Source: Arenibacter nanhaiticus
GTDB taxonomy: Bacteria; Bacteroidota; Bacteroidia; Flavobacteriales; Flavobacteriaceae
Length of the DNA: 64,000 nt
Assembly: GCF_900141935.1 (NCBI RefSeq)
Contig: NZ_FQYX01000010.1
Span: 1-64,000, forward strand
Direction of reading: 5' to 3'
This document shows positions 30,289-56,353 of the stretch, in pieces (the first letter of the stretch is position 1; each line of letters starts with the position of its first letter). The notes beneath the pieces are model-generated. The model worked only from the letters and a program-made list of their open reading frames with translations. It ran no database searches and had not been told where the DNA came from. The translations under genes were made by a program, and so were the position numbers.

Positions 30289-31407
30289 ATGTTTTTAAAC
30301 TTTCTGGACCGGATAAAGGATCAATTAGAAAAGGGATATCCGTTGGTGGCCTATCGTCATCCGAAGGAGGTAACGGTGAAGGCTATTTTTCAAAAAGACA
30401 AGGAATTGTATTTTGTAGAGGATTTTCGGGAAAGCGGCTTTGTATTTGCTCCTTTCGATGGCGAACAAAGTCCTGTTTTATTAAAAAAAGACGAGTTTCT
30501 TTCAGTAGCGTATCCACAGGAAAACAAGTTGTTAAACGAAACTACAATTTTCTCGGAATTTGACGATTTGGATAAAGATTTCCACCTTCAGATGATAGAG
30601 AAAGGCCTGGATGAAATAGCCGAAGGTACTTTGGACAAGGTTGTTTTGTCTAGAAAATTAGAGGTAGATACGGTTAAAACCCCGCTGGAAACTTTCCATG
30701 CCCTGTTGCGAAAATATCCCAGTGCATTCTGTTATATCTGGTACCATCCTTCCGTAGGGCTGTGGCTGGGAGCTACCCCAGAAATGTTATTGCAAACCGA
30801 GAACAAGCGTTTTAAGACCATGTCCTTGGCAGGGACCAAGTTGGCTGTAGGTGAGCAAGGGCCACAATGGGACAAAAAGGAGCTAGAAGAACAAGGAATG
30901 GTAACCGAATTTATAGAAGCTGCACTTGCCGATAAAGTAACTTCCATGACCGTCTCGGATACTACGGCTGTACGGGCAGGTAATTTATGGCATTTAAAGA
31001 CTTCGGTATCTGGCCTAATAGGAAGCTGTGGGTTAAAGGAAATTATTAGTGCCTTGCATCCTACACCGGCAGTATGTGGATTACCAAAATTAAAGGCCAA
31101 GACCTTTATCCTAAATAATGAAAACTACAATAGGGAGTATTATACGGGCTTTTTGGGGGAGCTGAACTTCAGGGAAGATCAGAGAAGGCCCCAACCTAGG
31201 CGTAATCAGGAAAACAGGGTGTATAGAACCGTAAAGAACAAGACGGCCTTGTATGTTAACCTAAGGTGTTTGCAATGGCAAGATAAGAAAGTGATGATAT
31301 ACGTAGGAGGTGGTATTACCAATGGCTCGGTGCCAGAGGACGAATGGAAGGAAACCAAGCATAAAAGTGGAACAATGCTGAATGTGCTTTTTAATAAAAA
31401 CTATTAG
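30289..31407 (+). CDS. menF: Isochorismate synthase (chorismate-binding enzyme)
   Basis: 372 aa. Chorismate-binding fold with LDKVVLSRKLEVDT (lysine base), FCYIWYHPSVGLWLGATPEMLL, MSLAGTK, TPAVCGLPK and the C-terminal YVGGGITNGSVPEDEWKET. Chorismate to isochorismate is the first step of the classical menaquinone pathway; next to menD, a siderophore or salicylate role is unlikely. Nearly contiguous with the upstream thioesterase gene. Confidence 0.93.
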   Translation: MFLNFLDRIKDQLEKGYPLVAYRHPKEVTVKAIFQKDKELYFVEDFRESGFVFAPFDGEQSPVLLKKDEFLSVAYPQENKLLNETTIFSEFDDLDKDFHLQMIEKGLDEIAEGTLDKVVLSRKLEVDTVKTPLETFHALLRKYPSAFCYIWYHPSVGLWLGATPEMLLQTENKRFKTMSLAGTKLAVGEQGPQWDKKELEEQGMVTEFIEAALADKVTSMTVSDTTAVRAGNLWHLKTSVSGLIGSCGLKEIISALHPTPAVCGLPKLKAKTFILNNENYNREYYTGFLGELNFREDQRRPQPRRNQENRVYRTVKNKTALYVNLRCLQWQDKKVMIYVGGGITNGSVPEDEWKETKHKSGTMLNVLFNKNY

Positions 31408-31416
31408 GGCTTTCCG

Positions 31417-31448
31417 TTGGTTTTAGAATTGGTGGCGTTGTATTTTTG
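31417..31448 (+). promoter_or_regulatory. Internal promoter of menD
   Basis: TTG at 31417-31419, 21-bp spacer, TATTTTTG at 31441-31448. The -7 box ends 5 nt before the menD ATG, so a transcript from here would be leaderless or nearly so. Confidence 0.65.
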
Positions 31449-31453
31449 TCACC

Positions 31454-33208
31454 ATGAAATATTCGAGCATTCCTACCGCACAATCTGTTGTGTACCACTG
31501 CAAGGCAAGGGGTATAAAAAACGTTATAATTTCTCCGGGCTCCCGAAATGCCCCTCTGACCATAGGGTTTTCAGAAGACCCTTATTTTAAGTGTTTTAGC
31601 ATTGTAGACGAACGTTGTGCTGCCTTTTTTGCTCTTGGGATTGCTCAACAAACAAGAAAGCCGGTCGTTCTTTTGTGTTCCTCGGGCAGTGCGCTTTTAA
31701 ATTATTATCCCGCTATTTCTGAAGCTTTTTACAGTGATATCCCCTTGGTGGTCCTCACTGCAGACAGACCTGGGTATAAGGTAGATATAGGGGATGGGCA
31801 GACTATTAGGCAAGAAAATGTTTTTAAAAATCATATCGGATATACGGCCAATTTAAAGCAAGATGTCTATCATGCTACGGATAAGATAAAAAAGTATGCT
31901 CCCGAACAGCTTTTAGGGCTTAGCCCTAGTGACGCCCAAGCTAGAGTGCAGCACTATAACGATGGGGAATTAAATCAGGCCTTTAAAGAGGTGTTGTCTC
32001 AAAATTGCCCAGTTCACATTAATGTTCCATTTGAAGAGCCCTTGTATGATGTTTTGGAACATGCTACGGTAGCCCCAAAAGTGGCCGTGGAAGCGATCGA
32101 AAATGATCCTTGGACGGACGACTTAAAAGAAGTGGCAAAAATATGGTCTACTGCGGCTCGTAAAATTGTATTGGTAGGCGTAAACTATCCCAATACGATC
32201 ATGGAATCGTATTTAAAGGTTCTGGGCGAAGATCCATCGGTAATCGTTTTTACGGAAAGCACTTCAAATCTTCATCACGACAATTTTTTTGCAAGTATCG
32301 ATAGTATCATTGCGCCTATCGAAAAATCGGACCAGAAAGAAGAACTGTTTAAGGAGTTGCAACCCGATATCGTCCTGACCCTAGGGGGGCTTATTGTTTC
32401 TAAAAAGGTAAAGGCTTTCTTAAGAAGCTATTCTCCCAGTCATCATTGGCATGTAGATGCTAAAAAAGCCTATAACACCTTCTTTTGTCTGAAAAAGCAT
32501 TTTAAAACGGATCCCAATAATTTTTTTAAGGAACTGTTTTCATTATCCAGTCCTTTAGAAAGTACTTATCATCAGAAATGGGCCAAAAAAAGACGGGGAT
32601 ACGAGTTAAAAAGACAGGCCTTTATATCGGAAATACCTTTTTCCGACATGTTGGTTTTTAACGATATAATAAAAACCATTCCACAAGAGTATCAATTGCA
32701 GTTGGCGAATAGTTCTACGGTTCGCTATGCGCAGCTTTTTGATTTGGATACTTCTATACGGGTGTTTTGTAATCGTGGGACAAGTGGAATAGATGGCAGT
32801 ACTTCTACGGCTATTGGAGCAGCTCTTTACGATAACAGCCCAACATTGCTTATCACAGGCGATTTAAGTTTTTTGTATGATAGCAACGCTATGTGGAATC
32901 GTTATATCCGTCCTGATTTTAGGATTATAGTGATCAATAATAATGGAGGCGGGATATTTAGAATATTACCAGGGAGGGCAGAGACCGAAAATTTCGAAAC
33001 ATTTTTTGAGACGACGCACCAGTTAAATATTGAGCCTTTAGCTACAATGTATGGCTTTGAGTATGGGCGGGTTTCAGATGAGGATGCTCTAAAAGATGCT
33101 CTTGAAAAATTTTACCGGCCCTCGGAGAGGCCAAAAATTCTTGAGGTTTCTACCCCTAGACTTATAAATGATAAAATTTTGCTTAATTATTTTGATTTCA
33201 TATCTTAG
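31454..33208 (+). CDS. menD: SEPHCHC synthase (menaquinone biosynthesis)
   Basis: 584 aa, full length. ThDP-enzyme architecture: N-terminal Pyr domain with GIKNVIISPGSRNAPLT and VDERCAAFFALG (conserved Glu), central TH3-like domain, C-terminal PP domain with FCNRGTSGIDGSTSTAIG and the Mg/ThDP motif ITGDLSFLYDSN to NNNGGGIF. It joins isochorismate and 2-oxoglutarate. Confidence 0.96.
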   Translation: MKYSSIPTAQSVVYHCKARGIKNVIISPGSRNAPLTIGFSEDPYFKCFSIVDERCAAFFALGIAQQTRKPVVLLCSSGSALLNYYPAISEAFYSDIPLVVLTADRPGYKVDIGDGQTIRQENVFKNHIGYTANLKQDVYHATDKIKKYAPEQLLGLSPSDAQARVQHYNDGELNQAFKEVLSQNCPVHINVPFEEPLYDVLEHATVAPKVAVEAIENDPWTDDLKEVAKIWSTAARKIVLVGVNYPNTIMESYLKVLGEDPSVIVFTESTSNLHHDNFFASIDSIIAPIEKSDQKEELFKELQPDIVLTLGGLIVSKKVKAFLRSYSPSHHWHVDAKKAYNTFFCLKKHFKTDPNNFFKELFSLSSPLESTYHQKWAKKRRGYELKRQAFISEIPFSDMLVFNDIIKTIPQEYQLQLANSSTVRYAQLFDLDTSIRVFCNRGTSGIDGSTSTAIGAALYDNSPTLLITGDLSFLYDSNAMWNRYIRPDFRIIVINNNGGGIFRILPGRAETENFETFFETTHQLNIEPLATMYGFEYGRVSDEDALKDALEKFYRPSERPKILEVSTPRLINDKILLNYFDFIS

Positions 33209-33247
33209 AACAAAATAAACCATTCAATAAATAGAACCTTCTAAATT

Positions 33248-33592
33248 ATGAGCAAAAGAGACGAATTAATCGAAAAGTACGCAGCAGATATTAAAGAAAA
33301 ATTTGGTGAAGCTCCAGATTTGGACTTGTTGACCAAGGTAACCATTGGTTTGGGGCCCTCTATTTATAACTTGGATGCCTCCAAAGTTTCTGGTTCAGAT
33401 GACAAGGAGTTGGAAACCGTAAAGAATAACTTCCTTATTAAAAAATTAGGATTAAGTGATAGTCCAGCTTTGATGGAAGAAATAAAGAATGTTGTCGACA
33501 AATACGGGTCTTCGGTGAAAAGTAAGCACCGAGCGGTTGTCTATTATATGTTGACGAAACACTTTAAAAAAGAAGCTATATATAGCAAATAA
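33248..33592 (+). CDS. DUF2853 protein
   Basis: 114 aa, small, acidic and helical, matching in my memory the DUF2853 family (LTKVTIGLGPSIYNLDASKVSG and SKHRAVVYYMLTKHF). It is often found next to menD in flavobacteria, but no function is known. Co-directional with menD (39-bp gap) and followed by a terminator. Confidence 0.85.
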   Translation: MSKRDELIEKYAADIKEKFGEAPDLDLLTKVTIGLGPSIYNLDASKVSGSDDKELETVKNNFLIKKLGLSDSPALMEEIKNVVDKYGSSVKSKHRAVVYYMLTKHFKKEAIYSK

Positions 33593-33614
33593 TAAGTTGT
33601 ATATAGAGATATGG

Positions 33615-33644
33615 GCCGTTCTTTAAAAAGAGCGGCTTTTTTTG
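33615..33644 (+). terminator. Terminator after DUF2853, overlapping the next promoter
   Basis: 10-bp stem (GCCGTTCTTT / AAAGAGCGGC, one G-U pair) and a T-run. The last T-run bases, TTTG at 33641-33644, double as the -33 box of the following promoter. Confidence 0.8.
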
Positions 33645-33674
33645 TACGCATGATTCTTTTTAAATGTATTTTTG
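33641..33674 (+). promoter_or_regulatory. Promoter of the CvfB-like gene
   Basis: TTTG at 33641-33644, 22-bp spacer, TATTTTTG at 33667-33674. Only 4 nt separate the -7 box from ATG 33679, suggesting a leaderless mRNA. Confidence 0.7.
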
Positions 33675-33678
33675 TAGC

Positions 33679-34512
33679 ATGATAGCATTAGGAAAATATA
33701 GCAATTTAGAAATATTAAGAGATACCAGCGTGGGTCTCTTTTTAGGAGATGAAGAAGGGAATGATGTTCTGCTTCCCAATAAATATGTGCCAGAGGAATT
33801 TGAAATAGGAGATTTCATAAATGTATTCTGTTATTTAGATCATGAAGAACGTATAGTAGCCACTACATTGGAACCGTTTGTGATGGTAGATCAGTTTCAA
33901 TTACTGGAAGTAGCAGAGGTTAATGATTTTGGTGCTTTTATGGATTGGGGACTAGAGAAGCATTTATTAGTGCCGTTTCGCGAGCAACGAAATAAAATGC
34001 AGGAAGGACAATGGTATGTAGTGCATTGTTATTTGGATGAAAAGACCAACCGTTTGGTGGCTTCTAATAAGTTGGATAAATTTTTATCAAACGATCTCTT
34101 AACCGTAAAGGTATTGGACGAGGTTGATTTAGTGGTGACCAGGTTTACCGATTTAGGATGGGAAGTTATTGTCAATAACCAACATAAGGGACTTGTCTAT
34201 GCTAACGAAGTATTTAAAAAGGTAGCGGTAGGCGATAAGTTAAAAGGATATATTAAGCATATAAGACCCGATAATAAGTTAGATGTAGCCCTACAACCAA
34301 TAGGATACCAAAGCTTGGAACCGGCGGCCAACCTTATCTATGAAAAACTGTTAGCCCATGGAGGCAAACTGAACCTTCACGATAAATCGGATCCTGAAGA
34401 TATCAAAAGGCAGCTTCAAATGAGTAAAAAAACCTTTAAAAAAGGAATTGGAGCCCTTTACAAGGAACGTAAAATTGAAATTAAATCAGACAGTATTCAC
34501 CTGATTGAATAA
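33679..34512 (+). CDS. CvfB-family S1-like RNA-binding protein
   Basis: 277 aa. N-terminal MIALGKYSNLEILRDTSVGLFL, then S1-like barrels (DFGAFMDWGLEKHLLVPFREQ; LGWEVIVNNQHKGLVYANEVF) and a C-terminal winged helix (FKKGIGALYKERKIEI) match CvfB/YitL. The family binds RNA and affects virulence-factor expression in Staphylococcus; the role here is unknown. An in-frame ATG at 33664 lies upstream of the -7 box, so 33679 is the likely start. Confidence 0.88.
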   Translation: MIALGKYSNLEILRDTSVGLFLGDEEGNDVLLPNKYVPEEFEIGDFINVFCYLDHEERIVATTLEPFVMVDQFQLLEVAEVNDFGAFMDWGLEKHLLVPFREQRNKMQEGQWYVVHCYLDEKTNRLVASNKLDKFLSNDLLTVKVLDEVDLVVTRFTDLGWEVIVNNQHKGLVYANEVFKKVAVGDKLKGYIKHIRPDNKLDVALQPIGYQSLEPAANLIYEKLLAHGGKLNLHDKSDPEDIKRQLQMSKKTFKKGIGALYKERKIEIKSDSIHLIE

Positions 34513-34643
34513 AACAGTTGTTGTCCTAGGCAGGAGCATTTGCTGTGAAGGAGTTCGATGAAGGAGCCTTCTTTTATCGAAACATGAACCATTGCTTTTA
34601 AATAGCGAAAGAAACGTATTTTTATATTAAAACTTAAGTATTT

Positions 34644-35249
34644 ATGCCATTCATTGAAGAAAGCGATTTGTTAGAATTGCACAAGGATATTGATAAGGCG
34701 CAAATTATAAATGATCGCCTTTTAGATCAAATAAAGCACAAGAATAAGGAGTTAAAACGAAGCAAGATACAACGTAACGTTTTAGGGATAGTGACTGGAC
34801 TTTTCCTGATTGGCGGTATGGTGGCTTTATCGTATAATGCCGGTTTTGTTAAATCGTCCAATCAACAGTATCGTAACAGTCTAGAGGTTATTGGTTTAAT
34901 CGATAGTTTGGATATTATAAAAAGACGAATTGAAAATATTAAAAAGCAAAACGAGGAACTTAGTCTGTTGCACGAATTTTATTTGGCTAAAAGGTTCTTG
35001 AATAAAGAAAAAATATATTCCGTTCAGGTAAAAACCTTCGTTGATAACAATATAACCTTATCCTCGGAGTCTTTGGGAAATACCCTATTTGCAAAGGCCA
35101 ATCCTTTTTATTCTTATTCCTTGGGGAATTTTGAAACCTTGGAAGAGGCACGCTCCTTTAGATATCAGTTGATCAATATGGGGTTTAAAGACGCCTTTGT
35201 GGCCTCATACAGAGATGGAAAACGAATAGAAATAGAAGAACCCTACTAG
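34644..35249 (+). CDS. Membrane-anchored coiled-coil protein with SPOR-like C-terminus
   Basis: 201 aa. Charged N-terminal helix (about 1-50), one membrane segment (VLGIVTGLFLIGGMVALSYNAG, about 47-70), a coiled-coil stretch (about 80-115) and a C-terminal region (about 120-195, IYSVQVKTF and YSLGNFETLEEARSFRYQLINMGF) with the beta-alpha-beta pattern of SPOR peptidoglycan-binding domains. Likely periplasmic domain facing the cell wall. The role is unknown. It abuts menA, so the two may be co-transcribed. Confidence 0.75.
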   Translation: MPFIEESDLLELHKDIDKAQIINDRLLDQIKHKNKELKRSKIQRNVLGIVTGLFLIGGMVALSYNAGFVKSSNQQYRNSLEVIGLIDSLDIIKRRIENIKKQNEELSLLHEFYLAKRFLNKEKIYSVQVKTFVDNNITLSSESLGNTLFAKANPFYSYSLGNFETLEEARSFRYQLINMGFKDAFVASYRDGKRIEIEEPY

Positions 35250-35250
35250 T

Positions 35251-36159
35251 TTGTTGAAAATAAAAGCTTGGCTTAACGCAGCGCGATTAAGAACACTTCC
35301 CCTTTCTCTATCGGGTATCATTGTAGGTACTGTTTTAGGGAGAATGTACGGTGAATTTAATATCGGCATTTTTATCCTTGCCGTATGTACTACAATCGGA
35401 TTTCAGGTTACCTCAAATTTTGCCAATGATTACGGGGATGGAGTAAAAGGCACAGACAATGAAAATCGGGTAGGTCCAAAACGAGCCTACCAAAGTGGTC
35501 TCCTGTCCCGGAAGGAGTTGAAAAACGGTATTATCACCGCTGTGGTGATCTGTATATTGTTAGTGATAAGTTTGTTGTTTTACGCTTTTGGTGCCGAAAA
35601 TTTAAAATACATTGCCATCTTTGGCGGCTTAGGGGCCCTTAGTATTTGGGCGGCCATTAGGTATACGGTGGGAGAGTCGGCTTACGGATATAGAGGCTTA
35701 GGGGATGTTTTTGTTTTTCTTTTTTTTGGATTGCTCGGGGTATTGGGAGCCATGTTCCTATATACTAAATCCATGGAGTATATGGGTATTTTTCCGGCTA
35801 TTACCATAGGCCTGTTGAGTACAGGGGTGCTGAATTTGAATAATTTACGCGACTATAAGTCCGATAAACTAGCGAATAAAAACACGATTATTGTTAAAAT
35901 TGGTGTTGAAAAAGGAAAAATATATCATACGTTTTTGATCGTTTTGAGTTTTTTGGCCATGCTGGTATTTACGATCCTAAATTTTCAAAGCTGGTTAAAT
36001 GCCCTACATTTATTGGCTTTTATTACTATATTCATACATTTAAGGAAGGTGTTGAAAACCAAAAACACCGTTTTGTTAGATCCGGAACTTAAAAAATTAG
36101 CGCTGAGTACTTTTTTATTGGCCCTATTGTTTTATTTTAGTTATTATAATTTTTTGTAA
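35251..36159 (+). CDS. menA: 1,4-dihydroxy-2-naphthoate polyprenyltransferase
   Basis: 302 aa, UbiA superfamily with about eight or nine membrane helices. The first aspartate-rich motif is NFANDYGDGVKGTDN and the second LNNLRDYKSDKLANKNT. It prenylates DHNA to demethylmenaquinone in the inner membrane. The only start that keeps the N-terminal KAWLNAARLRTLPLS segment is a TTG at 35251, one base after the upstream stop codon. Confidence 0.93.
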   Translation: MLKIKAWLNAARLRTLPLSLSGIIVGTVLGRMYGEFNIGIFILAVCTTIGFQVTSNFANDYGDGVKGTDNENRVGPKRAYQSGLLSRKELKNGIITAVVICILLVISLLFYAFGAENLKYIAIFGGLGALSIWAAIRYTVGESAYGYRGLGDVFVFLFFGLLGVLGAMFLYTKSMEYMGIFPAITIGLLSTGVLNLNNLRDYKSDKLANKNTIIVKIGVEKGKIYHTFLIVLSFLAMLVFTILNFQSWLNALHLLAFITIFIHLRKVLKTKNTVLLDPELKKLALSTFLLALLFYFSYYNFL

Positions 36160-42732: not shown

Positions 42733-42855
42733 TATTGCTGTTTTTTAGGATATATCAAAGTTAAGAAATATTAAAGCAACCTTCTTATTAAATTCTGCTA
42801 GACATTGTTTTTGTCTTTTCGTTACATTTATACTTCCTTAACCAATTACCATAAC

Positions 42856-44832
42856 ATGCACTACAAGGGACATATTTTAGATAAGGCGACGCAGTTGAAA
42901 CTGTATCAGCAGTTATTAAAGCCACGCCTAATAGAGGAAAAAATGTTAATTCTGCTGCGTCAGGGGAAAATATCCAAATGGTTCAGTGGTATTGGCCAAG
43001 AGGCTATTTCTGTTGGTGTTACAGCTGCTTTGTCCGATGACGATTATATCTTGCCCATGCATCGTAACTTGGGAGTTTTTACCTCAAGGAACATGCCTTT
43101 AAGGCGACTCTTTGCACAATGGCAGGGCAAAAAAAGTGGCTATACCAAGGGCAGGGATCGCAGTTTTCATTTTGGCGCCAAGGAACACAAGATTGTAGGG
43201 ATGATATCTCATTTGGGCCCCCAATTAGGGGTAGCCGACGGAATAGCCTTGGCAAATTTGCTACAAAAAAAGCAATCTGTGACCGCGGTTTTTACCGGAG
43301 AAGGTGGTACCAGTGAAGGCGATTTTCACGAAGCACTTAATTTGGCCGCCGTTTGGGATCTGCCAGTGCTATTCTGTATCGAAAACAATAGGTATGGCCT
43401 TTCTACCCCAGCCCATGAGCAGTACAGATGTGAAAACTTGGCCGATAAGGGTGTTGGTTACGGGATAGAATCGCATATAGTTGATGGTAATAATATTATA
43501 GAGGTGTTTGATAAGGTGACGCAAATTTGTCGGGAAATGCGGAAAACTCCCCGTCCTGTCCTTATAGAATTTAAAACTTTTAGGATGCGGGGGCATGAGG
43601 AGGCAAGTGGTACCAAATATGTACCACAGCAGCTTTTGGAGAAATGGGGAAAGAAAGATCCACTGCTGAATTATGAACAATATTTAATAGGAGAAAAAAT
43701 CTTAACGCCCCATTTAAAGGAGACCTTCAGAACTCAAGTCACCGACGAAATAGAGGAAAATCTTAAAGAGGCCTTGGCCGAAGATGATGTTGTTTTTAAT
43801 GAGGATACCGAGCTAAAGGATGTTTTTAAGGAATGCGATTACCAAGAGTACAAGCCTACTGGGGTAAGAAATAAAATTAGGTTTGTCGATGCAATATCCC
43901 AAGGGTTACGGCAATCCATGGAAAAACACCGGCAGCTCGTCATCATGGGGCAAGACATTGCAGATTACGGAGGAGTGTTTAAAATTACAGAGGGATTTGT
44001 TGATGCTTTTGGAAAAGATCGGGTACGCAACACCCCCATTTGTGAGTCGGCCGTAGTTTCTTTGGCGATGGGGCTTTCTATAAATGGAATGAAGGCCGTG
44101 GTAGAAATGCAATTTGCCGACTTTGTAAGTACCGGATTTAACCCTATTGTTAATTACTTGGCCAAAGTACACTATCGCTGGGGAGAGAATGCCGATGTGG
44201 TTATCCGCATGCCTTGTGGAGGAGGGATGGGGGCCGGACCGTTCCATTCCCAGACCAATGAGGCGTGGTTTACCAAAACTCCGGGCCTAAAAGTGGTCTA
44301 TCCTGCCTTTCCGTTTGACGCTAAAGGTATGTTGATCTCCGCTATTAACGATCCTAATCCAGTATTGTTCTTTGAACACAAAGGCTTGTACCGCAGTAGT
44401 TATCAAGAAGTTCCTGTAGATTATTATTCCCTTCCTTTTGGAAAAGCAGCTTTGTTAAAAGAAGGAGAGGCTATCACCATAGTTTCCTATGGTCTTGGGG
44501 TACATTGGGTTTTGGAAGCCTTGGAGCAGAATCCTGGGATCAGTGCCGATGTGTTGGATCTGAGAAGCTTACAGCCATTAGATACTAAAGCCATTTATTC
44601 TTCGGTGAAAAAGACAGGGAAACTTATTATCTTGCAAGAAGACAGCATTTTTGGGGGTATGGCCAGCGATATTTCTGCCTTGGTCATGGAGAATTGTTTT
44701 GAGTATTTGGATGCCCCTGTAAAAAGGGTAGCAAGTTTACAAACGCCTATTCCTTTTGCAAAATCGTTGGAGGAAAATTATTTACCCAAAGAACGCTTTA
44801 TAAAAGAGCTTTTAAAATTATTGGCCTATTAA
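42856..44832 (+). CDS. Fused alpha-beta E1 component of a branched-chain 2-oxoacid dehydrogenase
   Basis: 658 aa. Residues about 1-330 are the E1-alpha half with the ThDP motif GEGGTSEGDFHEALNLA to ENNRYGLST; residues about 345-658 are the E1-beta half (GQDIADYGGVFKITEGF, VEMQFADFVSTGFNPIVNY, RMPCGGGMGAGPFHSQ). It decarboxylates branched 2-oxoacids from Val, Leu and Ile and passes the acyl group to E2. E2 and E3 are not here. The start at ATG 42856 follows the family; the frame runs upstream to 42805. Only 35 bp separate it from the histidine kinase gene. Confidence 0.92.
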   Translation: MHYKGHILDKATQLKLYQQLLKPRLIEEKMLILLRQGKISKWFSGIGQEAISVGVTAALSDDDYILPMHRNLGVFTSRNMPLRRLFAQWQGKKSGYTKGRDRSFHFGAKEHKIVGMISHLGPQLGVADGIALANLLQKKQSVTAVFTGEGGTSEGDFHEALNLAAVWDLPVLFCIENNRYGLSTPAHEQYRCENLADKGVGYGIESHIVDGNNIIEVFDKVTQICREMRKTPRPVLIEFKTFRMRGHEEASGTKYVPQQLLEKWGKKDPLLNYEQYLIGEKILTPHLKETFRTQVTDEIEENLKEALAEDDVVFNEDTELKDVFKECDYQEYKPTGVRNKIRFVDAISQGLRQSMEKHRQLVIMGQDIADYGGVFKITEGFVDAFGKDRVRNTPICESAVVSLAMGLSINGMKAVVEMQFADFVSTGFNPIVNYLAKVHYRWGENADVVIRMPCGGGMGAGPFHSQTNEAWFTKTPGLKVVYPAFPFDAKGMLISAINDPNPVLFFEHKGLYRSSYQEVPVDYYSLPFGKAALLKEGEAITIVSYGLGVHWVLEALEQNPGISADVLDLRSLQPLDTKAIYSSVKKTGKLIILQEDSIFGGMASDISALVMENCFEYLDAPVKRVASLQTPIPFAKSLEENYLPKERFIKELLKLLAY

Positions 44833-50077: not shown

Positions 50078-50563
50078 ATGAATGTAAAAAAGCCCTTTTT
50101 TGCGCTTTTAGTAATGGGTTCCTTATTAGTGTCTTGTTCGGTTTCCAAAGTAGCCCGGATGGACAGAAAAGTTATAGAGGGGAACTGGACTCTGAACAAT
50201 GTTTCTTATGAAGGAAAGAGCGGAAATTTTAAATCTGTACTTTTTAACGATGCTAATGCCAATTGTTTTATTGGGAGTCATTGGTTTTTTAGAAACAATA
50301 ACAGTACAGGGAGTTATTGGTTGATGGATGGGTCGGATTGTACCGGTGGTGATCGCTTCATTCGTTGGTCGGTAGTAGATCGGGGAGGTCTTGCCAATCA
50401 GTTGCAATTTAAGTTTATAGATGAGAAGTATAAAGATATTTCTGGAGGGGTAGGGTATCGGTTAGATATCGCTTCCTTAACGGAAGAACAAATGACCTTA
50501 AAGTCAAAAGTATCTGTAGACGGAGAACCTATAACCATTGTATATAAATTTTCAAAAGAATAA
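50078..50563 (+). CDS. Lipocalin-like lipoprotein
   Basis: 161 aa, lipobox LLVSCSVSK (Cys about residue 20), then an antiparallel strand pattern (EGNWTLNNVSYEG, SHWFFRNNNSTGSYWL, MTLKSKVSVDG) typical of the lipocalin-like families. Followed 10 bp later by the OmpA-type gene, so the two form an operon at the cell envelope. Confidence 0.82.
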   Translation: MNVKKPFFALLVMGSLLVSCSVSKVARMDRKVIEGNWTLNNVSYEGKSGNFKSVLFNDANANCFIGSHWFFRNNNSTGSYWLMDGSDCTGGDRFIRWSVVDRGGLANQLQFKFIDEKYKDISGGVGYRLDIASLTEEQMTLKSKVSVDGEPITIVYKFSKE

Positions 50564-50573
50564 CATCAATAGC

Positions 50574-51269
50574 ATGAAAAAATTAATAGTATGTAGTTTG
50601 TCGGCCATTATTATTTTGGCTTCTTTCAGTAGTTGTACTGCTGTAAAAAACACCAACAAAAAGCAAAGAGGTGCTGCCGTCGGTGCCGCTGGTGGTGCCG
50701 TCATTGGAGGGGTGATTGGCAATAATGTAGGCAATAAAAAAAATACAGCCCTTGGTGCCATTATCGGTGCCGTTGTAGGGGGTGTTGCCGGTGGTTATAT
50801 CGGAGATAGAATGGATCGTCAGGCCGAGCGTATCGAGGAGGAAATTCCAGGAGCAGAGGTAACCCGTGTTGGAGAAGGGATAAATGTAACCTTTAATGAA
50901 GATGCCGGAGTGTATTTCGATACCAATAAAGCGACCGTAAAAGGCACTTCAGCGACCACTTTGGACAGATTGATAGGTATCTTAAAAGAATACCCAGATA
51001 CCAATATTTTGGTAGAAGGACATACCGATAGTGCAGGAGCCGAGGAGTATAACTACAACTTGTCTAGACAACGCGCCCAATCCGTCACTAATTATTTGGT
51101 TTCTAAGGGAATTTCGAGTGGTAGACTTACCACAAACTGGTATGGAGAAACTCAGCCAAAGGCAGATAATGGTACGGCAGCAGGGAAGGCTAAGAATAGA
51201 AGGGTAGAATTGGTAATCGTGGCCAATGAAAAATTAAAACAAGAAGCTTTAGGCAAGGCAAAACAATAG
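50574..51269 (+). CDS. OmpA-family lipoprotein with glycine zipper
   Basis: 231 aa. Lipoprotein signal (ILASFSSCTAVKN), glycine-zipper region (about 40-80, GGAVIGGVIGNNVGN and GAVVGGVAGGYIGD), then the OmpA peptidoglycan-binding domain (about 105-215, GVYFDTNKATVKGTS, LVEGHTDSAGAEEYNYNLSRQRAQSV, KNRRVELVI). It should tether the outer membrane to peptidoglycan. The start is ATG 50574; the frame's upstream extension overlaps the lipocalin gene. Confidence 0.93.
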   Translation: MKKLIVCSLSAIIILASFSSCTAVKNTNKKQRGAAVGAAGGAVIGGVIGNNVGNKKNTALGAIIGAVVGGVAGGYIGDRMDRQAERIEEEIPGAEVTRVGEGINVTFNEDAGVYFDTNKATVKGTSATTLDRLIGILKEYPDTNILVEGHTDSAGAEEYNYNLSRQRAQSVTNYLVSKGISSGRLTTNWYGETQPKADNGTAAGKAKNRRVELVIVANEKLKQEALGKAKQ

Positions 51270-51287: not shown

Positions 51288-51320
51288 AAAAACCCGACGA
51301 ATTTCGTCGGGTTTTTTGTT
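51288..51320 (+). terminator. Rho-independent terminator between the OmpA gene and the polyketide cluster
   Basis: AAAAACCCGACGA / TCGTCGGGTTTTT with an ATT loop. It ends 8-10 bp before the first gene of the biosynthetic cluster, which therefore has very little room for its own promoter. Confidence 0.92.
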
Positions 51321-51327
51321 TTAAAAT

Positions 51328-52464
51328 ATGTACCTTTCTTATGTGATCTTATTTGACGTACTCGTTGTGGGAGGTGGATTGGCTGGATTGACCTCGGCCC
51401 TTGATTTACAAAAAAAGGGATATAGTGTTTTGGTGTTTGAGAAACTAGCCTATCCACATCATAAGGTATGTGGCGAGTACGTGTCTATGGAAGCTGTTCC
51501 TTACCTAGACTATTTAGGGATTTCCCTGCTTGATGCCGTTTCAATAAACAAAATGGTGTTAAGCACTTTAAAAGGACGGACATTACAGGCAGACCTTGCT
51601 ATGGGGGGTGTGGGGATAAGTCGCTACACCCTAGATAACAGATTATATCTTAAAGCTAGGGAAGTTGGAGTGATGTTTGTTTTCGAAAGTGTTGTTTCCG
51701 TAATTTTTCAAAGGGAGACTTTTATAATAAAGACCGAAAAAGGAACAGTCTATCATGCTAAAGTAGCCATTGGAGCTTATGGAAAAAGAAGTGCTCTGGA
51801 CAAGCAGTTGCAACGTGGTTTTAAAGGGGAGAAATCGCCTTGGCTTGCGGTGAAGGCTCATTATAAATTAGATGGTTTTCCAGATGATACAGTGGCCCTG
51901 CACAATTTTAGGGGAGGGTATGGCGGATTGTCAAAAACAGAGTCTGGCGCGGTTAATTTTTGTTATTTGGTTTCTTATGAAAGTTTTAAAGAAGTGAAAA
52001 GTATAGCTCATTTTAATAAGAATGTGGTTTCTAAGAACCCTTTTTTAGGGCAGTTTTTAGAAGAGGCTCAACAGTTATTTCCAGCCCCGGAAACTATTGG
52101 GCAAGTGGGCTTTGAAAAGAAAAGTGCCGTAGAGAATCATATAATTATGTGCGGAGATACGGCTGGCTTAATACACCCACTTTGTGGAAATGGCATGGCT
52201 ATGGCGATTCATAGCGCTAAAATCGCTGCAGAAACAATAGATTGTTTTTTTAGGGAAATGGCCTATAGCCGAAATCAGATGGAAAAGGACTATACGAAAC
52301 AATGGAGAAAAACCTTTGGCAGAAGATTATGGTTGGGAAGGAATTTACAATCTTTATTACTACATGAAAAATCCTTAGAGGTCGTTGTTCAGTTAGCATC
52401 GAAATCGCCTTCTTTGATAAAATCACTTATTAGTAATACCCATGGTAAAACAATTCGATTTTGA
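51328..52464 (+). CDS. FAD-dependent oxidoreductase (monooxygenase/geranylgeranyl reductase-like), cluster gene 1
   Basis: 378 aa. FAD-binding GGGLAGL close to the N-terminus, EK at the end of the second strand, KVCGEYVS in the family-specific place and a C-terminal FAD motif MCGDTAGLIHPLCGNGMAMA. It belongs to the class that includes aromatic hydroxylases and geranylgeranyl reductases. Next to a type III PKS and a methyltransferase it parallels SrsC, which hydroxylates alkylresorcinols to quinols in Streptomyces. The start is uncertain: ATG 51328 or GTG 51343. The last base of the stop codon is the first base of the next gene's ATG. Confidence 0.88.
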   Translation: MYLSYVILFDVLVVGGGLAGLTSALDLQKKGYSVLVFEKLAYPHHKVCGEYVSMEAVPYLDYLGISLLDAVSINKMVLSTLKGRTLQADLAMGGVGISRYTLDNRLYLKAREVGVMFVFESVVSVIFQRETFIIKTEKGTVYHAKVAIGAYGKRSALDKQLQRGFKGEKSPWLAVKAHYKLDGFPDDTVALHNFRGGYGGLSKTESGAVNFCYLVSYESFKEVKSIAHFNKNVVSKNPFLGQFLEEAQQLFPAPETIGQVGFEKKSAVENHIIMCGDTAGLIHPLCGNGMAMAIHSAKIAAETIDCFFREMAYSRNQMEKDYTKQWRKTFGRRLWLGRNLQSLLLHEKSLEVVVQLASKSPSLIKSLISNTHGKTIRF

Positions 52465-53183
52465 TGAATTTTAATACCCGAAGCTCGGAAATAGAAAGGA
52501 TGGACAATCTATCGGTAGATCTTGTCTCATTGCAAGAAATATTGTTCGATATAAATCGGGTTAATTCCCTTCTTAACGGATATTCGATCACTCTTAAAGC
52601 GATAAAAAAAATCATCCAGGAAAATCCGAAAAACAGTTATACCATTATAGATATGGGGTGTGGAGATGGTACTATGTTAAGGAAAGTGGTCCGGTATTTT
52701 AAAAATGAGCCTTTTAAATTAAATTTAATAGGGATCGATCTTAGTGAAAAAGGTATTGAAATAGCCAAAGCTATGTCGACAAGTTTTTCTAATATTAGCT
52801 ATCAAAATAGGGATATCTTAAGTTTGGAGGCTCATGAAATTGATTGTGATATTATACTCTCGACCCTTACCATGCATCATTTTAGTTCCCAAGAAATACC
52901 CTTGTTTCTAGATCAATTCGTTAAAATAGCCCGTTTAGGAGTGATTATCAATGATCTGCAAAGAAGTAGGTTGGCCTATGGGTTATTTTGGGGCTTTAGT
53001 GTGATGTTTGTTAAAACCAAGGTTGGAAAGTCCGATGGTTTGGTTTCCATAAAAAGAGGCTTTGTGTTAAAGGATTTAGTGGCTTTTTCGCAAAATATTC
53101 CAGATGTCCAGCATACCATAAAGTGGAAGTGGGCGTTTCGTTATCTATGGGTCTTACGGACAAAAACAGCTAAAAATGTATGA
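52464..53183 (+). CDS. SAM-dependent methyltransferase, cluster gene 2
   Basis: 239 aa. Motif I DMGCGDGTMLRKVV and the acidic residue after IGIDLSE mark a class I fold; later LSTLTMHHFSSQEI. No signal peptide. The ATG overlaps the upstream stop codon by one base (TGATG), and its TGA overlaps the ATG of the polyketide synthase gene (ATGA). This coupling shows the enzymes are made in parallel. Likely O- or C-methylation of the polyketide, as by SrsB; position unknown. Confidence 0.9.
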   Translation: MNFNTRSSEIERMDNLSVDLVSLQEILFDINRVNSLLNGYSITLKAIKKIIQENPKNSYTIIDMGCGDGTMLRKVVRYFKNEPFKLNLIGIDLSEKGIEIAKAMSTSFSNISYQNRDILSLEAHEIDCDIILSTLTMHHFSSQEIPLFLDQFVKIARLGVIINDLQRSRLAYGLFWGFSVMFVKTKVGKSDGLVSIKRGFVLKDLVAFSQNIPDVQHTIKWKWAFRYLWVLRTKTAKNV

Positions 53184-54235
53184 ATAAGGTAAAAATTGTC
53201 ACGGTAACAAAGGAATTGCCCACCTATAGTAAGGATACTAAAGATATTCTACCGCTGGTAAAATGGTGGCTAAGGGATCAGGACGGACGATTTCAACGGA
53301 AGGTTCTAAAAATATTTGAAGGTGCTGCGGTAGACAAACGCTATAGTATAATGGCGCCGGAAGAGGTATTTAAGGCGACATCTTTTCAAGAGAAAAATGA
53401 TATTTATAGTCGTGAAGTCCGTAAACTAGGGAAAAAAGTCTTAGAAAAAGCACTTTATAAAAGCGATTGGTCGGCAAAAAGTTTAGATTTTATTATTACG
53501 GTCAGTTGTACGGGGATAATGATCCCATCTCTTGATGCTTATCTAATTGATGATTTAGGGATGCGCCAGGAAGTGGTTCGTTTGCCTGTTACTGAAATGG
53601 GGTGTGCAGCAGGTGTTTCGGGGCTTATCTATGCCTATAATTTTCTAAAATCCAACCCGGGTAAAAGAGCCGCTATTGTGGCAGTCGAAAGTCCAACCGC
53701 TACCTTTCAGTTAAATGATTATTCCATGGCAAATATGGTCAGTGCTGCTATATTTGGCGATGGGGCGGCCTGTGTTTTATTATCCTCTGAGGTAGAGGCT
53801 AGTGGCCCTAGAATAGTTGGGGGCGAAATGTATCACTTCGAGAATACGACGCAATTAATGGGTTTTGATCTGGCTAATACAGGGTTGAAAATGATCTTGG
53901 ATCCGGCGGTACCCGAAACCATATCCGAACATTTTCCAGCAATTATACATCCTTTTTTAAAAAAATATGGCAGTGAAATTGACAAGGTCAATCATTTGAT
54001 TTTTCACCCAGGAGGAAAAAAAATTGTACAAACCGTAGAAGAATTATTTGGGAAACTAGGTAAAAATATTGATGAGACCAGAGAAACCCTTCGTCTCTTT
54101 GGAAATATGAGCAGCGCAACCGTTCTTTATGTTTTGGAGCGTTATTTGGAAAAGGATATTTCGGTGGGCGAGCAAGGGCTGGTGTTGAGTTTTGGACCGG
54201 GGTTTTCGGCACAGCGGGTGTTGTTGGAGTGGTAG
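53180..54235 (+). CDS. Type III polyketide synthase (chalcone/alkylresorcinol synthase-like)
   Basis: 351 aa, a normal length. The catalytic triad is complete: C142 in EMGCAAG, H276 in LIFHPGGKK, N309 in LFGNMSS. The active site and the C-terminal GFGPG-like loop (LSFGPGFSAQ) are conserved. Such enzymes extend a CoA or ACP starter with malonyl-CoA and cyclise the product to a resorcinol, pyrone or phloroglucinol. Starter size cannot be read directly, but the downstream ketosynthase, dehydratase and ACP point to a fatty-acyl starter made in the same cluster. Confidence 0.95.
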   Translation: MNKVKIVTVTKELPTYSKDTKDILPLVKWWLRDQDGRFQRKVLKIFEGAAVDKRYSIMAPEEVFKATSFQEKNDIYSREVRKLGKKVLEKALYKSDWSAKSLDFIITVSCTGIMIPSLDAYLIDDLGMRQEVVRLPVTEMGCAAGVSGLIYAYNFLKSNPGKRAAIVAVESPTATFQLNDYSMANMVSAAIFGDGAACVLLSSEVEASGPRIVGGEMYHFENTTQLMGFDLANTGLKMILDPAVPETISEHFPAIIHPFLKKYGSEIDKVNHLIFHPGGKKIVQTVEELFGKLGKNIDETRETLRLFGNMSSATVLYVLERYLEKDISVGEQGLVLSFGPGFSAQRVLLEW

Positions 54236-54302
54236 GAATGTCATAGGAAGATAATTTCCACCATTAGGAAAGCACGCTTTAAAGGAATAATTAGTATGAT
54301 GC

Positions 54303-54743
54303 ATGAATACATATAAAGAAATTTTAGACCTACTACCATACAAGGAGCCTTTCTTGTTTGTAAATGACTTGGCAACGGTTAATGATGATGGAGCAACAGG
54401 TTCCTATACCTTTAAGGCGGAGGAAGGTTTTTACAGAGGACATTTTAAAGAATATCCGGTAACTCCTGGCGTTATTTTAACCGAGTGCTGTGCGCAGATT
54501 GGATTGGTCTGTTTGGGCATTTACCTCCTAAAGCAAGAACAGGCCGAATTTAATAATCCCCAAATTGCTTTAAGCCGTTCACAAATGGATTTTTCGTTAC
54601 CGGTGTTTCCGGAGGAAACAGTTACCGTAAGCTCAAGTCTTGTGTATTTTAGATTTCATAAATTAAAATGCCTGGTTAAAATGCACAATGGCAAAGGTCA
54701 ATTGGTATGCCAAGGAGTTTTAGAAGGGATGTTAAAAATATAA
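54303..54743 (+). CDS. FabZ/FabA-like 3-hydroxyacyl-ACP dehydratase, cluster gene 4
   Basis: 146 aa, single hotdog fold. Catalytic pair H47 (RGHFKEYPVTPGVIL) and E61 (LTECCAQIG) matches FabZ. It should dehydrate 3-hydroxyacyl-ACP during chain growth. Gaps are 67 bp to the polyketide synthase gene and 70 bp to the ketosynthase gene. Confidence 0.9.
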   Translation: MNTYKEILDLLPYKEPFLFVNDLATVNDDGATGSYTFKAEEGFYRGHFKEYPVTPGVILTECCAQIGLVCLGIYLLKQEQAEFNNPQIALSRSQMDFSLPVFPEETVTVSSSLVYFRFHKLKCLVKMHNGKGQLVCQGVLEGMLKI

Positions 54744-54813
54744 AAGCATGGAATAAGAATGAGCAAAAACCGGTCGTACATATGAACGTTAAAAAACAAT
54801 ACAAAAAACACCT

Positions 54814-56088
54814 ATGAAAAAGCGTGTCGTAATTACAGGGCTTGGCGTCTGTGCTCCAAAGGGGGTAGGGGTCTCCGACTTCCTTAACACCCTAAAAAAG
54901 GGCGAGAGCGGAATAGCATTTCACCAAGAATTGGCGGCTTTAGGGTTTTCTTGCCAAATTGCGGGAAAACCAGAAGTTACACCCTCTATTTTAGAAGCTT
55001 TTTTTTCGCCTTTGCAAAGAAAAGGCTTAAGAGCTAGTGGTATCGTTTATGGGGTTATTGCGGGTATGGATGCCTGGGCGGATGCGGGATTGGAGAAGGC
55101 GGCCAAGGAAGAACCCGATTGGGACAGTGGTATTGTGTTTGGAGCCGGAACCTTAGGGGTCGATACGTTTAGGGAAGCGATACACCTCATTGATGCCAAT
55201 AAAACAAGAAGACTGGGAAGTACTACGGTGATACAGACCATGGCGAGTGGTATTAGTGCATATTTGGGCGGAATTTTAGGTTGTGGCAATCAAGTAACGA
55301 CCAATTCTTCTGCTTGTGGTACGGGCACGGAGGGCCTTATAATGGGCTATGAAAGAATCAGGTCGGGAATGGCCAGTCGTATGTTGGTAGGGAGTACCAG
55401 TGATAGCGGTCCCTATGTATGGGGTGGATTTGATGCTATGAGAATTTTACCCAGTAAATATAATGATAATCCTATTCTTGCAAGTAGGCCTATGAGCGAC
55501 AGTGCTGCAGGTTTCGTTCCCGGGAGCGGAGCGGGGGCATTGGTACTAGAATCGCTGGACTCGGCCTTGAAGCGTGGGGCCACCATATACGCCGAGGTCT
55601 TGGGTGGGGCCGTAAATAGCGGAGGACAGCGCGGGAACGGTAGTATGACAGCACCCAACAGTACGGCCGTACAACGGTGTATAAAAGCAGCTATAAAAGA
55701 TGCTGAGGTGCAAGGGAGAGACATAGATGTTATCAACGGGCATTTGACAGCAACCAAAAAGGATGTCGATGAAATTCGGAACTGGAGTGAAGCTTTGCAA
55801 AGGAGAGGAATTGATTTTCCCTATATCAATTCGACCAAAGGAATAGTGGGGCATTGCTTGGCAGCATCGGGCAGTATAGAATCGGTAGCCACAGTATTAC
55901 AGCTTAAAGAAGGATTGGTTTTTGGAAACCAGAATTGCCCGGACATTCACCCCGAAATTTTAGCCTATGTGGATGCTAGCAAAATTCCCCAACAAACCAT
56001 TCAATATCAGCCTAAAATAGCAGCAAAAGCAAGTTTTGGCTTTGGAGATGTAAACGCATGTGTTATCTTTAAAGAATATCCTAAATGA
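54814..56088 (+). CDS. Beta-ketoacyl-ACP synthase (KAS II-like), cluster gene 5
   Basis: 424 aa. Thiolase fold with the triad C168 (NSSACGTG), H310 (VINGHLTATKKD) and H347 (KGIVGHCLAASG), all present. It condenses malonyl-ACP with a growing chain. Sequence is divergent enough from housekeeping FabF (e.g. the KRGLRAS and SDSGPYVWGGFDAM segments) to suggest a dedicated enzyme. No chain-length-factor partner, ketoreductase or enoyl reductase is in the cluster, so these are presumably borrowed from fatty-acid synthesis. Confidence 0.93.
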   Translation: MKKRVVITGLGVCAPKGVGVSDFLNTLKKGESGIAFHQELAALGFSCQIAGKPEVTPSILEAFFSPLQRKGLRASGIVYGVIAGMDAWADAGLEKAAKEEPDWDSGIVFGAGTLGVDTFREAIHLIDANKTRRLGSTTVIQTMASGISAYLGGILGCGNQVTTNSSACGTGTEGLIMGYERIRSGMASRMLVGSTSDSGPYVWGGFDAMRILPSKYNDNPILASRPMSDSAAGFVPGSGAGALVLESLDSALKRGATIYAEVLGGAVNSGGQRGNGSMTAPNSTAVQRCIKAAIKDAEVQGRDIDVINGHLTATKKDVDEIRNWSEALQRRGIDFPYINSTKGIVGHCLAASGSIESVATVLQLKEGLVFGNQNCPDIHPEILAYVDASKIPQQTIQYQPKIAAKASFGFGDVNACVIFKEYPK

Positions 56089-56095
56089 CCATCGT

Positions 56096-56353
56096 ATGAG
56101 AAAAGAAGAACGCTTTAGAACCTTAAAGAATATAGTGAAGGTTTATCTCCCGGAAGATGTTTCCGAAGAAGCTATTGAAGCGGAAAGTAATTTCACCTCG
56201 GAGTTAAATATCAATTCGGCTAACTTGGTCGATATCGTCCTCGATGTCGAGGATGCCTTTCATATAAAAATTGAAAATGACGATATGGACCAAATGAAAA
56301 CGGTCCGGGATGCTCTTTATATCATCGATCAAAAACTTTTAAACAAAGCATAA
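56096..56353 (+). CDS. Acyl carrier protein, cluster gene 6
   Basis: 85 aa, acidic four-helix ACP. The phosphopantetheine site is S41 in LNINSANLVDIVLDVEDAF; the usual DSL is NSA here, so a modified carrier loop. It starts at ATG 56096, 7 bp after the ketosynthase stop codon, and is the last gene of the cluster. An upstream in-frame ATG at 56060 overlaps the ketosynthase gene and lacks ACP similarity. Confidence 0.88.
   Translation: MRKEERFRTLKNIVKVYLPEDVSEEAIEAESNFTSELNINSANLVDIVLDVEDAFHIKIENDDMDQMKTVRDALYIIDQKLLNKA

Follow-up and report, generated by a model that had tools for sequence, protein, structure and literature searches.

The window analysed here, a 64,000-nucleotide stretch of DNA from the marine flavobacterium Arenibacter nanhaiticus, carries six consecutive genes on the + strand between positions 51328 and 56353. 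The open reading frame listing and the matches to Pfam and NCBIfam profiles agree with the original prediction in the direction and family of all six, and place them in the following order:

51328..52464, + strand: FAD-dependent oxygenase-like protein of the group A flavoprotein/geranylgeranyl reductase type, putative ring hydroxylase (profiles, predicted fold)
52461..53183, + strand: SAM methyltransferase, putative ring methyltransferase (profiles; gene present in 119 of 119 distinct loci)
53180..54235, + strand: type III polyketide synthase (PKS), Cys142-His276-Asn309 (profiles, alignments, predicted fold)
54236..54302: gap of 67 bases, occupied in 77 of 115 distinct complete loci by a gene for a FabL-like enoyl-ACP reductase
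54303..54743, + strand: FabZ-like 3-hydroxyacyl-ACP dehydratase, His47 and Glu61 (profiles, alignment)
54814..56088, + strand: FabF/B-like beta-ketoacyl-ACP synthase, Cys168/His310/His347 (profiles, alignment)
56096..56353, + strand: acyl carrier protein (ACP; profiles, alignment; longer frame, 56060-56353)

The overlap of codons among the first three genes, also predicted, is real and amounts to about 1-4 bases at each of the two junctions. The methyltransferase gene reads TTG and then ATG. For the ACP, the ATG at 56096 suits the N-termini of related ACPs better than the frame opening at 56060.

The last three genes form a putative type II elongation set, all members of which keep their active-site residues. 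The dehydratase matches the FabA-like/FabZ profile, the ketosynthase both the N- and C-terminal ketoacyl-synt profiles, and the ACP the PP-binding profile. Residues C168, H310 and H347 of the ketosynthase, singled out in the prediction, are invariant in all 16 aligned sequences, and because these catalytic residues are kept, the protein is not a decayed chain-length factor. Conservation is 97% or higher at H47 and E61 of the dehydratase (118 sequences) and at S53 of the ACP in the numbering of the longer frame (115 sequences); from what is known of the families, we take the former to be catalytic and the latter to be the phosphopantetheine attachment serine. A ketoreductase was found neither among the six genes of the window nor among the identified genes in the gaps within the corresponding runs of relatives. 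A gap in one such run (locus L122) also holds a second open reading frame, of 260 aa.

The FAD-dependent protein matches FAD_binding_3, and its best NCBIfam model, that of the geranylgeranyl reductase superfamily, scores below the cut-off (115 vs 158.8 bits). Its AlphaFold model has a mean pLDDT of 89.3, and the top Foldseek matches of this predicted fold are 3-hydroxybenzoate 6-hydroxylase and flavin halogenases. The protein is a putative ring hydroxylase, which could alternatively act as a reductase. We rejected a halogenase assignment: several flavin halogenases are among the top folds, but the motif for which such enzymes are checked, Trp-x-Trp-x-Ile-Pro, is absent as judged by eye. The methyltransferase matches Methyltransf_25, and its nearest NCBIfam model, PRK06202, is under its cut-off.

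An OmpA match is found ahead of the cluster in 72 of the 80 named loci. The lipocalin-like and OmpA-like lipoproteins encoded upstream (50078-51269) were nevertheless rejected as members, as 9 of 34 relative genomes that lack the PKS also have the lipocalin-like gene, and in the PKS-bearing genome G030 this gene lies on another contig. TerC, encoded downstream on the other strand, was rejected because it neighbours the cluster in only part of the loci. A hairpin followed by a T run can be seen by eye at about 51288-51318, between the OmpA-like gene and that of the FAD protein, but the computational terminator scan does not list it. Promoter-like sites number 21, which is no excess over shuffled sequences (17.0, sd 3.6); terminator-like sites number 2, below the 6.4 (sd 3.2) of the shuffles.

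Distribution of the cluster and of its two modules

Relatives were drawn from a set of 119 distinct loci, 115 of them complete, and from a phylum sample of 395 evenly drawn Bacteroidota genomes. The six-gene core is present in 115 of the 119 distinct loci, the window included, and the remaining four are cut short on contigs of 4.6-8.5 kb. The dehydratase gene occurs in 118 of the 119, with the single exception on a cut contig. The proposed comparison of synteny found the order of the six genes conserved across genera. In the relatives' loci the median intergenic gaps are -8 to 14 bases at four junctions, the PKS-dehydratase junction excepted, and in 104 of 104 loci the FAD protein and methyltransferase genes are separated by no more than 20 bases.

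In the phylum sample, the branch to which the PKS belongs and the ketosynthase (at least 61% identity) share the same 33 genomes of three families. In every one of these the ketosynthase lies 447-1529 bp downstream of the PKS on the same contig and strand, and none of the 395 genomes has the PKS branch without the ketosynthase. The view that the mixed design is uncommon did not hold up, as it is present in 30 of the 41 genomes of the same family listed from the sample, the organism's own included. Viral contigs contain no relative of the cluster; on plasmids, all PKS relatives are below 60% identity (the best at 33%) and ketosynthase relatives are at 35% or less.

The enoyl reductase gene is absent from 38 of the 115 complete loci. 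The best PDB match of its product is FabL (3oic, E 2.4e-29), and the Tyr-x6-Lys spacing is conserved. Neither the window nor any of the 19 Arenibacter loci examined carries it, and the A. nanhaiticus genome has no match to the relatives' enzyme above 30% identity. A PKS-ketosynthase gap of at least 1 kb, which leaves room for the reductase, is found in just 14 of the 33 genomes of the phylum sample; since most of the gaps are too short for it, the enzyme is optional. A phosphopantetheinyl transferase (PPTase) gene stands directly 3' of the ACP gene in 44 of the complete loci; in 31 of them the two genes share 4 bases. The window holds a reduced form of the cluster, without the reductase or PPTase that many relatives carry.

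The prediction had named as evidence against itself the occurrence of the dehydratase-ketosynthase-ACP genes as a separate unit in relatives. This objection holds in part: such a set exists without a type III PKS in five of the 395 genomes, all of other families and with ketosynthases 46-51% identical, so the cassette is not confined to this cluster. The converse, a PKS of this branch apart from the ketosynthase, did not occur in the sample. These data support the inheritance of the PKS and the three elongation genes as one unit. The tailoring genes have relatives of their own: models of the FAD protein and methyltransferase built for this analysis also match PKS-methyltransferase-FAD loci elsewhere in the phylum, and among 32 loci of a weaker PKS group, methyltransferase and FAD matches are present in 12, and dehydratase, ketosynthase or ACP matches in none. 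The cluster joins two modules that are separate elsewhere in Bacteroidota, a hierridin-like PKS/methyltransferase/oxidoreductase set and an elongation cassette.

The existence of each module on its own would also fit two independent neighbours that share only their regulation, the first drawing on ordinary acyl pools for a hierridin-like lipid and the second supplying a special acyl chain of another kind. In Corynebacterium, expressed planctomycete PKSs gave alkylresorcinols without a cassette (PMC10896814). However, the constant adjacency of PKS and ketosynthase across three families, the lack of any genome with this PKS branch alone and the tight packing of the genes make such independence unlikely.

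The type III PKS and related systems

The PKS, a plant-like ring-making enzyme, matches both type III PKS profiles (Chal_sti_synt N and C; PF00195, 79.1 bits, and PF02797, 68 bits, with a cut-off of 27 each). As predicted, C142, H276 and N309 are intact; they are invariant in alignments of 10, 38 and 46 sequences, the last of which includes distant type III PKSs. The closest NCBIfam model, DpgA, is far under its cut-off (160.8 vs 425 bits). The AlphaFold model (mean pLDDT 87.0) has a predicted type III PKS fold, and its nearest solved structures are PKS11 (Z 45.6) and CylI (Z 44.0), both with an rmsd of 2.2 and 346 aligned. THNS matches the model at Z 41.1, and the lead of PKS11 and CylI over many other type III PKSs is merely about 3-5 Z units. 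The title of the PKS11 structure names alkylpyrones, and according to its title CylI was solved with acyl-SNAC, beta-ketoacyl-SNAC and a resorcinol product. In a tree built without an outgroup and without HidC, the PKS forms a separate deep branch outside the Bacteroidota clade that bears methyltransferase and oxidoreductase/FAD genes. Because of this position, the analogy to the hierridin product is weak.

The srsABC genes of Streptomyces griseus combine a type III PKS with a methyltransferase and a flavoprotein hydroxylase. To our knowledge, srsABC has no elongation genes, and the germicidin synthase and SCO7671 clusters have no dedicated ketosynthase, dehydratase or ACP. The cyanobacterial hidABC genes (PMC8086630) and a planctomycete operon (PMC10896814) resemble the window's cluster in that a type III PKS stands beside a methyltransferase and an oxidoreductase. 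The consulted portions of these two papers mention neither an elongation cassette nor an enoyl reductase or PPTase, and they give the order methyltransferase-oxidoreductase-PKS, compared to FAD protein-methyltransferase-PKS in the window. In the ars operon of Azotobacter, a chain builder shares the cluster with a type III PKS, as it does here. However, that builder is a multidomain type I fatty acid synthase, ArsA, with demonstrated transfer to ArsB/ArsC (PMC6274091), whereas the window's operon has only discrete type II-like proteins in place of a type I synthase, with a putative transfer to the PKS.

In one of the five genomes that have the cassette without a type III PKS, a related reductase-dehydratase-ketosynthase-ACP-PPTase run (locus L167) is separated from DarB, which it faces on the opposite strand, by about 1.7 kb, with DarH also near. 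The L167 protein scores 634.8 bits against the DarB model. DarB/DarH chemistry uses alkyl chains, but in such dialkylresorcinol loci the ring is made by DarB and not by a type III PKS. Neither DarB nor DarH is among the listed NCBIfam matches of the window's cluster, PKS and ketosynthase included. A paper on an Ebo-cluster prenyltransferase (PMC9235831) proved unrelated. Full-text literature searches, the reach of which excludes most subscription journals, gave no description of this architecture among the titles and abstract openings listed.

Proposed pathway

The most likely explanation, to which we assign a probability of roughly two in three, is that the type II set builds a chain on the cluster's ACP, the type III PKS takes this chain as its starter, and the FAD enzyme and methyltransferase decorate the resulting ring of a ring-headed lipid. 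Ketosynthase, dehydratase and ACP, joined in many relatives by the enoyl reductase and PPTase, would build the acyl chain, with a ketoreductase supplied from elsewhere in the cell and, in Arenibacter, likewise an enoyl reductase and a PPTase. The ACP-bound chain would then be handed to the PKS, which would add malonyl units and close an aromatic or pyrone ring; hydroxylation by the FAD enzyme and methylation may follow, in an order that we infer. The product would most likely be a hydroxylated, methylated alkylresorcinol or a derived quinone, with an alkylpyrone as the second choice.

Priming by acyl-ACP rather than acyl-CoA is suggested by analogy. A review describes acyl-ACP starters for ArsB/ArsC, served by ArsA, and hexanoyl-ACP as a starter for two Streptomyces coelicolor type III PKSs, germicidin synthase (GCS) and SCO7671 (PMC6274091). 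Likewise, PKS, methyltransferase and oxidoreductase sets have precedents as sources of alkylresorcinols in the consulted parts of PMC10896814 and PMC8086630. The chain-supply reading is supported by the shared presence of PKS and ketosynthase in the 33 genomes, by the conserved six-gene core and its catalytic residues, by the same cassette standing near DarB/DarH in L167 and by PKS11 and CylI being the nearest folds, and the reductase and PPTase of relatives strengthen it. Against it count the runs without a ketoreductase, the enoyl reductase missing from the window and optional in relatives, and the five genomes with a cassette but no type III PKS.

The order of events might also be reversed. 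In that case the PKS product would be a small aromatic acid or thioester, from which the ketosynthase, dehydratase and ACP would grow an aryl-alkyl or aryl-polyene chain in the manner of aryl polyene pathways. DpgA, the distant best NCBIfam relative of the PKS, makes an aromatic thioester, and an unsaturated chain would fit the absence of the enoyl reductase from the window and from 38 of the 115 complete loci. This is quite improbable, however, given the reductase in the majority of complete loci, the cassettes that occur without any type III PKS, and the long-chain products made or bound by PKS11 and CylI according to their structure titles; moreover, the six genes include no ligase or acyltransferase that would load an aromatic acid onto the ACP. 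Direct delivery of beta-ketoacyl-ACP from the ketosynthase to the PKS, leaving the dehydratase and reductase to side reactions or proofreading, would suit a run without a ketoreductase and the beta-ketoacyl-SNAC in the CylI title, but is very improbable for loci that almost invariably retain a dehydratase, an enzyme that needs a ketoreduced substrate.

Returning to chain supply by the cassette, a broader form of this reading is tentative and in our judgment falls a little short of even odds. A portable, self-activating acyl-chain cassette of Bacteroidota, comprising FabL-like reductase, dehydratase, ketosynthase, ACP and PPTase in varying completeness, might be plugged into type III PKSs in Flavobacteriaceae, into DarB-type dialkylresorcinol synthesis and probably into a glycosyltransferase-bearing lipid locus. 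The Flavobacteriaceae PKS would then work from its own discrete ACP instead of CoA and yield a widespread, undescribed membrane phenolic lipid.

Type III PKSs account for 10.74% of the biosynthetic clusters across 2,680 Flavobacteriaceae genomes (PMC10734526), and a study of Aquimarina mentions type III polyketides that are likely novel (PMC9323603). A conserved architecture that includes a dedicated carrier protein, supplemented in relatives by a reductase and an activating enzyme, gives chemists a target, namely a ring lipid with a chain set by the cluster. It is also a natural system for studying how a type III PKS might accept chains from a discrete ACP. The paired ring-making and chain-building genes probably make a decorated, ring-headed lipid, and the cassette near dialkylresorcinol genes hints that several of the envelope lipids and pigments found in Bacteroidota share a logic of chain supply.

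Gene content and co-inheritance of the cluster

The polyketide synthase (PKS) locus has the following extent:
51328-56353, + strand: genes for a FAD oxygenase-like protein, a methyltransferase, a type III PKS, a FabZ-like dehydratase, a FabF/B-like ketosynthase and an ACP

Open reading frames, domain searches and alignments bore out the original prediction in the placement and strand of all six genes and in every residue it named (C142, H276 and N309 in the PKS; C168, H310 and H347 in the ketosynthase). The source genome is a 4.36-Mb draft in 85 contigs. Including this genome, 26 of 60 relatives carry the PKS: 18/18 in the genus, 8/19 in the rest of the family and 0/23 in the rest of the order. 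The gene order, from FAD protein to ACP, was kept in all 20 regions taken from 20 of the 25 other PKS-positive genomes. All six genes are present in 76 of the named loci, which are the best 80 of 578 and hence biased towards close relatives; the other four lie on contigs of only 4.6-8.5 kb. Adding three outlying genomes, 20 more loci from the phylum sample and the window itself to those collected earlier gave 124 loci. Because some of them represent the same genome taken twice, we counted distinct PKS sequences (119); the six-gene core is complete in 115. A genome search found one in-frame TAA within the ketosynthase match of locus L249 (genome G142), and loci L046 and L048 have, upstream of the cluster, a second gene with 20-21% identity to the PKS, perhaps FabH-like.

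In an evenly drawn sample of 395 genomes from the phylum, 173 contain a type III PKS of some kind (E up to 1e-30), and the scores fall into two groups, E <= 5.2e-190 in 33 genomes versus E >= 2.6e-75. The ketosynthase matches are likewise divided, with at least 61% identity in 33 genomes and 46-51% in 5. The two sets of 33 are identical, and in each of these genomes the ketosynthase shares contig and strand with the PKS and starts 447-1529 bp downstream of it. The window's family, with 41 members listed, accounts for 30 of these genomes; the remaining three come from two families in a different order of the class. The complete clusters of these three (L172 in G305, L173 in G138 and L174 in G195) have PKS scores within the range seen inside the window's family, which suggests horizontal transfer.

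In a 58-sequence FastTree phylogeny, displayed with midpoint rooting and no outgroup, the cluster PKSs form a single branch (support 0.854), separate both from the PKS-methyltransferase-FAD clade of the phylum and from a clade of PKSs lacking these partners. The FAD proteins also form one clade (0.895); the methyltransferase tree was poorly resolved. The type III PKS and methyltransferase genes, and those that follow them, are nearly identical between a Stenotrophomonas plasmid record (L213) and a Lysinibacillus plasmid (L216). Such agreement is odd for hosts so distant, and one record may be misassigned.

Reductase, phosphopantetheinyl transferase and neighbouring genes

The gap between PKS and dehydratase exceeds 300 bp in 79 of 103 loci and in most cases contains a short-chain dehydrogenase/reductase gene. 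Among solved structures, the closest relative of this gene's product is FabL, an enoyl-ACP reductase (3oic, E 2.4e-29), and it retains the Tyr-x6-Lys spacing rather than the Tyr-x3-Lys of ketoreductases. This FabL-like gene is present in 77 of the 115 distinct complete loci, a set in which near relatives are overrepresented. Across the evenly drawn sample of the phylum, a PKS-ketosynthase gap of at least 1 kb occurs in only 14 of 33 genomes, and the gene is absent from 18 of the 20 loci taken from this sample, mainly short-gap ones by choice. The 24 loci without it among the first 104 are 19 from Arenibacter (15 genomes), 3 others of the family and 2 outliers. A search of the window's genome with the reductase gave no match above 30% identity. 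A Salinimicrobium locus has a second 260-aa ORF adjoining the enoyl reductase within the cluster (L122:11973-12755).

A phosphopantetheinyl transferase (PPTase) gene lies directly 3' of the ACP in 44 of 115 distinct loci, including 19/20 from the phylum sample and 3/3 outliers, and in none of the Arenibacter or Maribacter loci searched. Four of its products scored 39.8-46.5 bits against PF01648 (cut-off 25). Elsewhere, the window's genome encodes a single protein of the PF01648 family, and nothing in it matched the cluster-type PPTase.

Three other groups of genes lie in the window:
50078-51269: genes for a lipocalin-like lipoprotein (PF13648) and an OmpA lipoprotein of the YiaD type
30289-36156: clustered chorismate-binding enzyme, TPP enzyme and UbiA-family prenyltransferase genes, which look like menaquinone synthesis
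42805-44832: fused dehydrogenase E1 alpha/beta protein (675 aa) that may be a branched-chain keto acid dehydrogenase, a potential source of iso-branched starters

The lipoprotein pair precedes the cluster in most named loci (best 80 of 578). As the lipocalin-like gene was also found in 9 of 34 PKS-free relatives, we rejected the pair as cluster members and read it as conserved neighbourhood.

The two modules apart

Both modules also exist separately. Of the loci with a PKS from the lower-scoring group, 32 were taken; none has dehydratase, ketosynthase or ACP matches, and 12 have methyltransferase and FAD matches (four of them with a weak FAD score of 26-31 bits). Conversely, all five genomes with a 46-51% ketosynthase carry dehydratase, ketosynthase and ACP, and the 18-kb stretch around them contains no type III PKS. 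Hence, the idea of a single unit is supported, with PKS and ketosynthase together in 33/33 genomes, and is qualified by the related dehydratase-ketosynthase-ACP cassettes in 5 of 395, which show that the cassette also has an existence of its own.

As to which chemistries the cassette serves, only the surroundings of one of these loci, L167, are firmly established. There, DarB (634.8 bits, cut-off 550) and DarH (453.7 bits, cut-off 300) are encoded on the opposite strand, DarB about 1.7 kb from the cassette; a FabL-like reductase gene lies upstream of the dehydratase, and the gene after the ACP is PPTase-like (24.9 bits with PF01648, just below the cut-off, and 52.4 bits with our own model). 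L168 has a similar gene order by eye, and L169 and L171 were assigned by resemblance alone. Near the cassette of L170 lie genes for a FabL-like reductase and a glycosyltransferase-like protein; a neighbour has a weak GNAT assignment (20.1 bits), and a BioF-like gene is about 4 kb away, beyond other genes.

Proposed route and its precedents

The ketosynthase, dehydratase and ACP would build an acyl-ACP, aided by reductases encoded in the cluster or drawn from primary metabolism; the type III PKS would accept the acyl group, add malonyl units and cyclise the product, and the FAD enzyme and methyltransferase would decorate the ring. Of this, the genes themselves, their conservation and co-inheritance and the occurrence of each module apart are observed; how substrate flows, which ring forms and how it is decorated are inferred. 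The predicted PKS structure (mean pLDDT 87.0) is nearest to PKS11 (Z 45.6) and CylI (44.0), then THNS (41.1), with many other type III PKSs at about 40. Structure titles describe methyl-branched alkylpyrones as PKS11 products, and CylI with bound acyl-SNAC or resorcinol product. These modelled likenesses agree with a long acyl starter but do not prove one. For the FAD protein model (mean pLDDT 89.3), the nearest structures are 3-hydroxybenzoate 6-hydroxylase and flavin halogenases.

Passages of PMC6274091 offer precedents in the acyl hand-over from ArsA to ArsB/ArsC and in hexanoyl-ACP with GCS and SCO7671. Combinations of PKS, methyltransferase and oxidoreductase resembling the first three genes of the cluster appear in excerpts on planctomycetes (PMC10896814) and cyanobacteria (PMC8086630), and flavobacterial type III PKS clusters are already tallied in survey excerpts (PMC7440613, PMC10734526). 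Our full-text literature search found no description of a type III PKS accompanied by discrete elongation enzymes of its own.

We put the probability that a dedicated type II elongation set supplies the type III PKS to make a ring-headed lipid at roughly two in three. Our estimates for this and the following reading were slightly lowered, given that the enoyl reductase is not as widespread as the near relatives imply and that the third setting of the cassette, near a glycosyltransferase-like gene, is weak. Tentatively, the dehydratase, ketosynthase and ACP may represent a portable acyl-chain cassette that serves several head-group chemistries in Bacteroidota.
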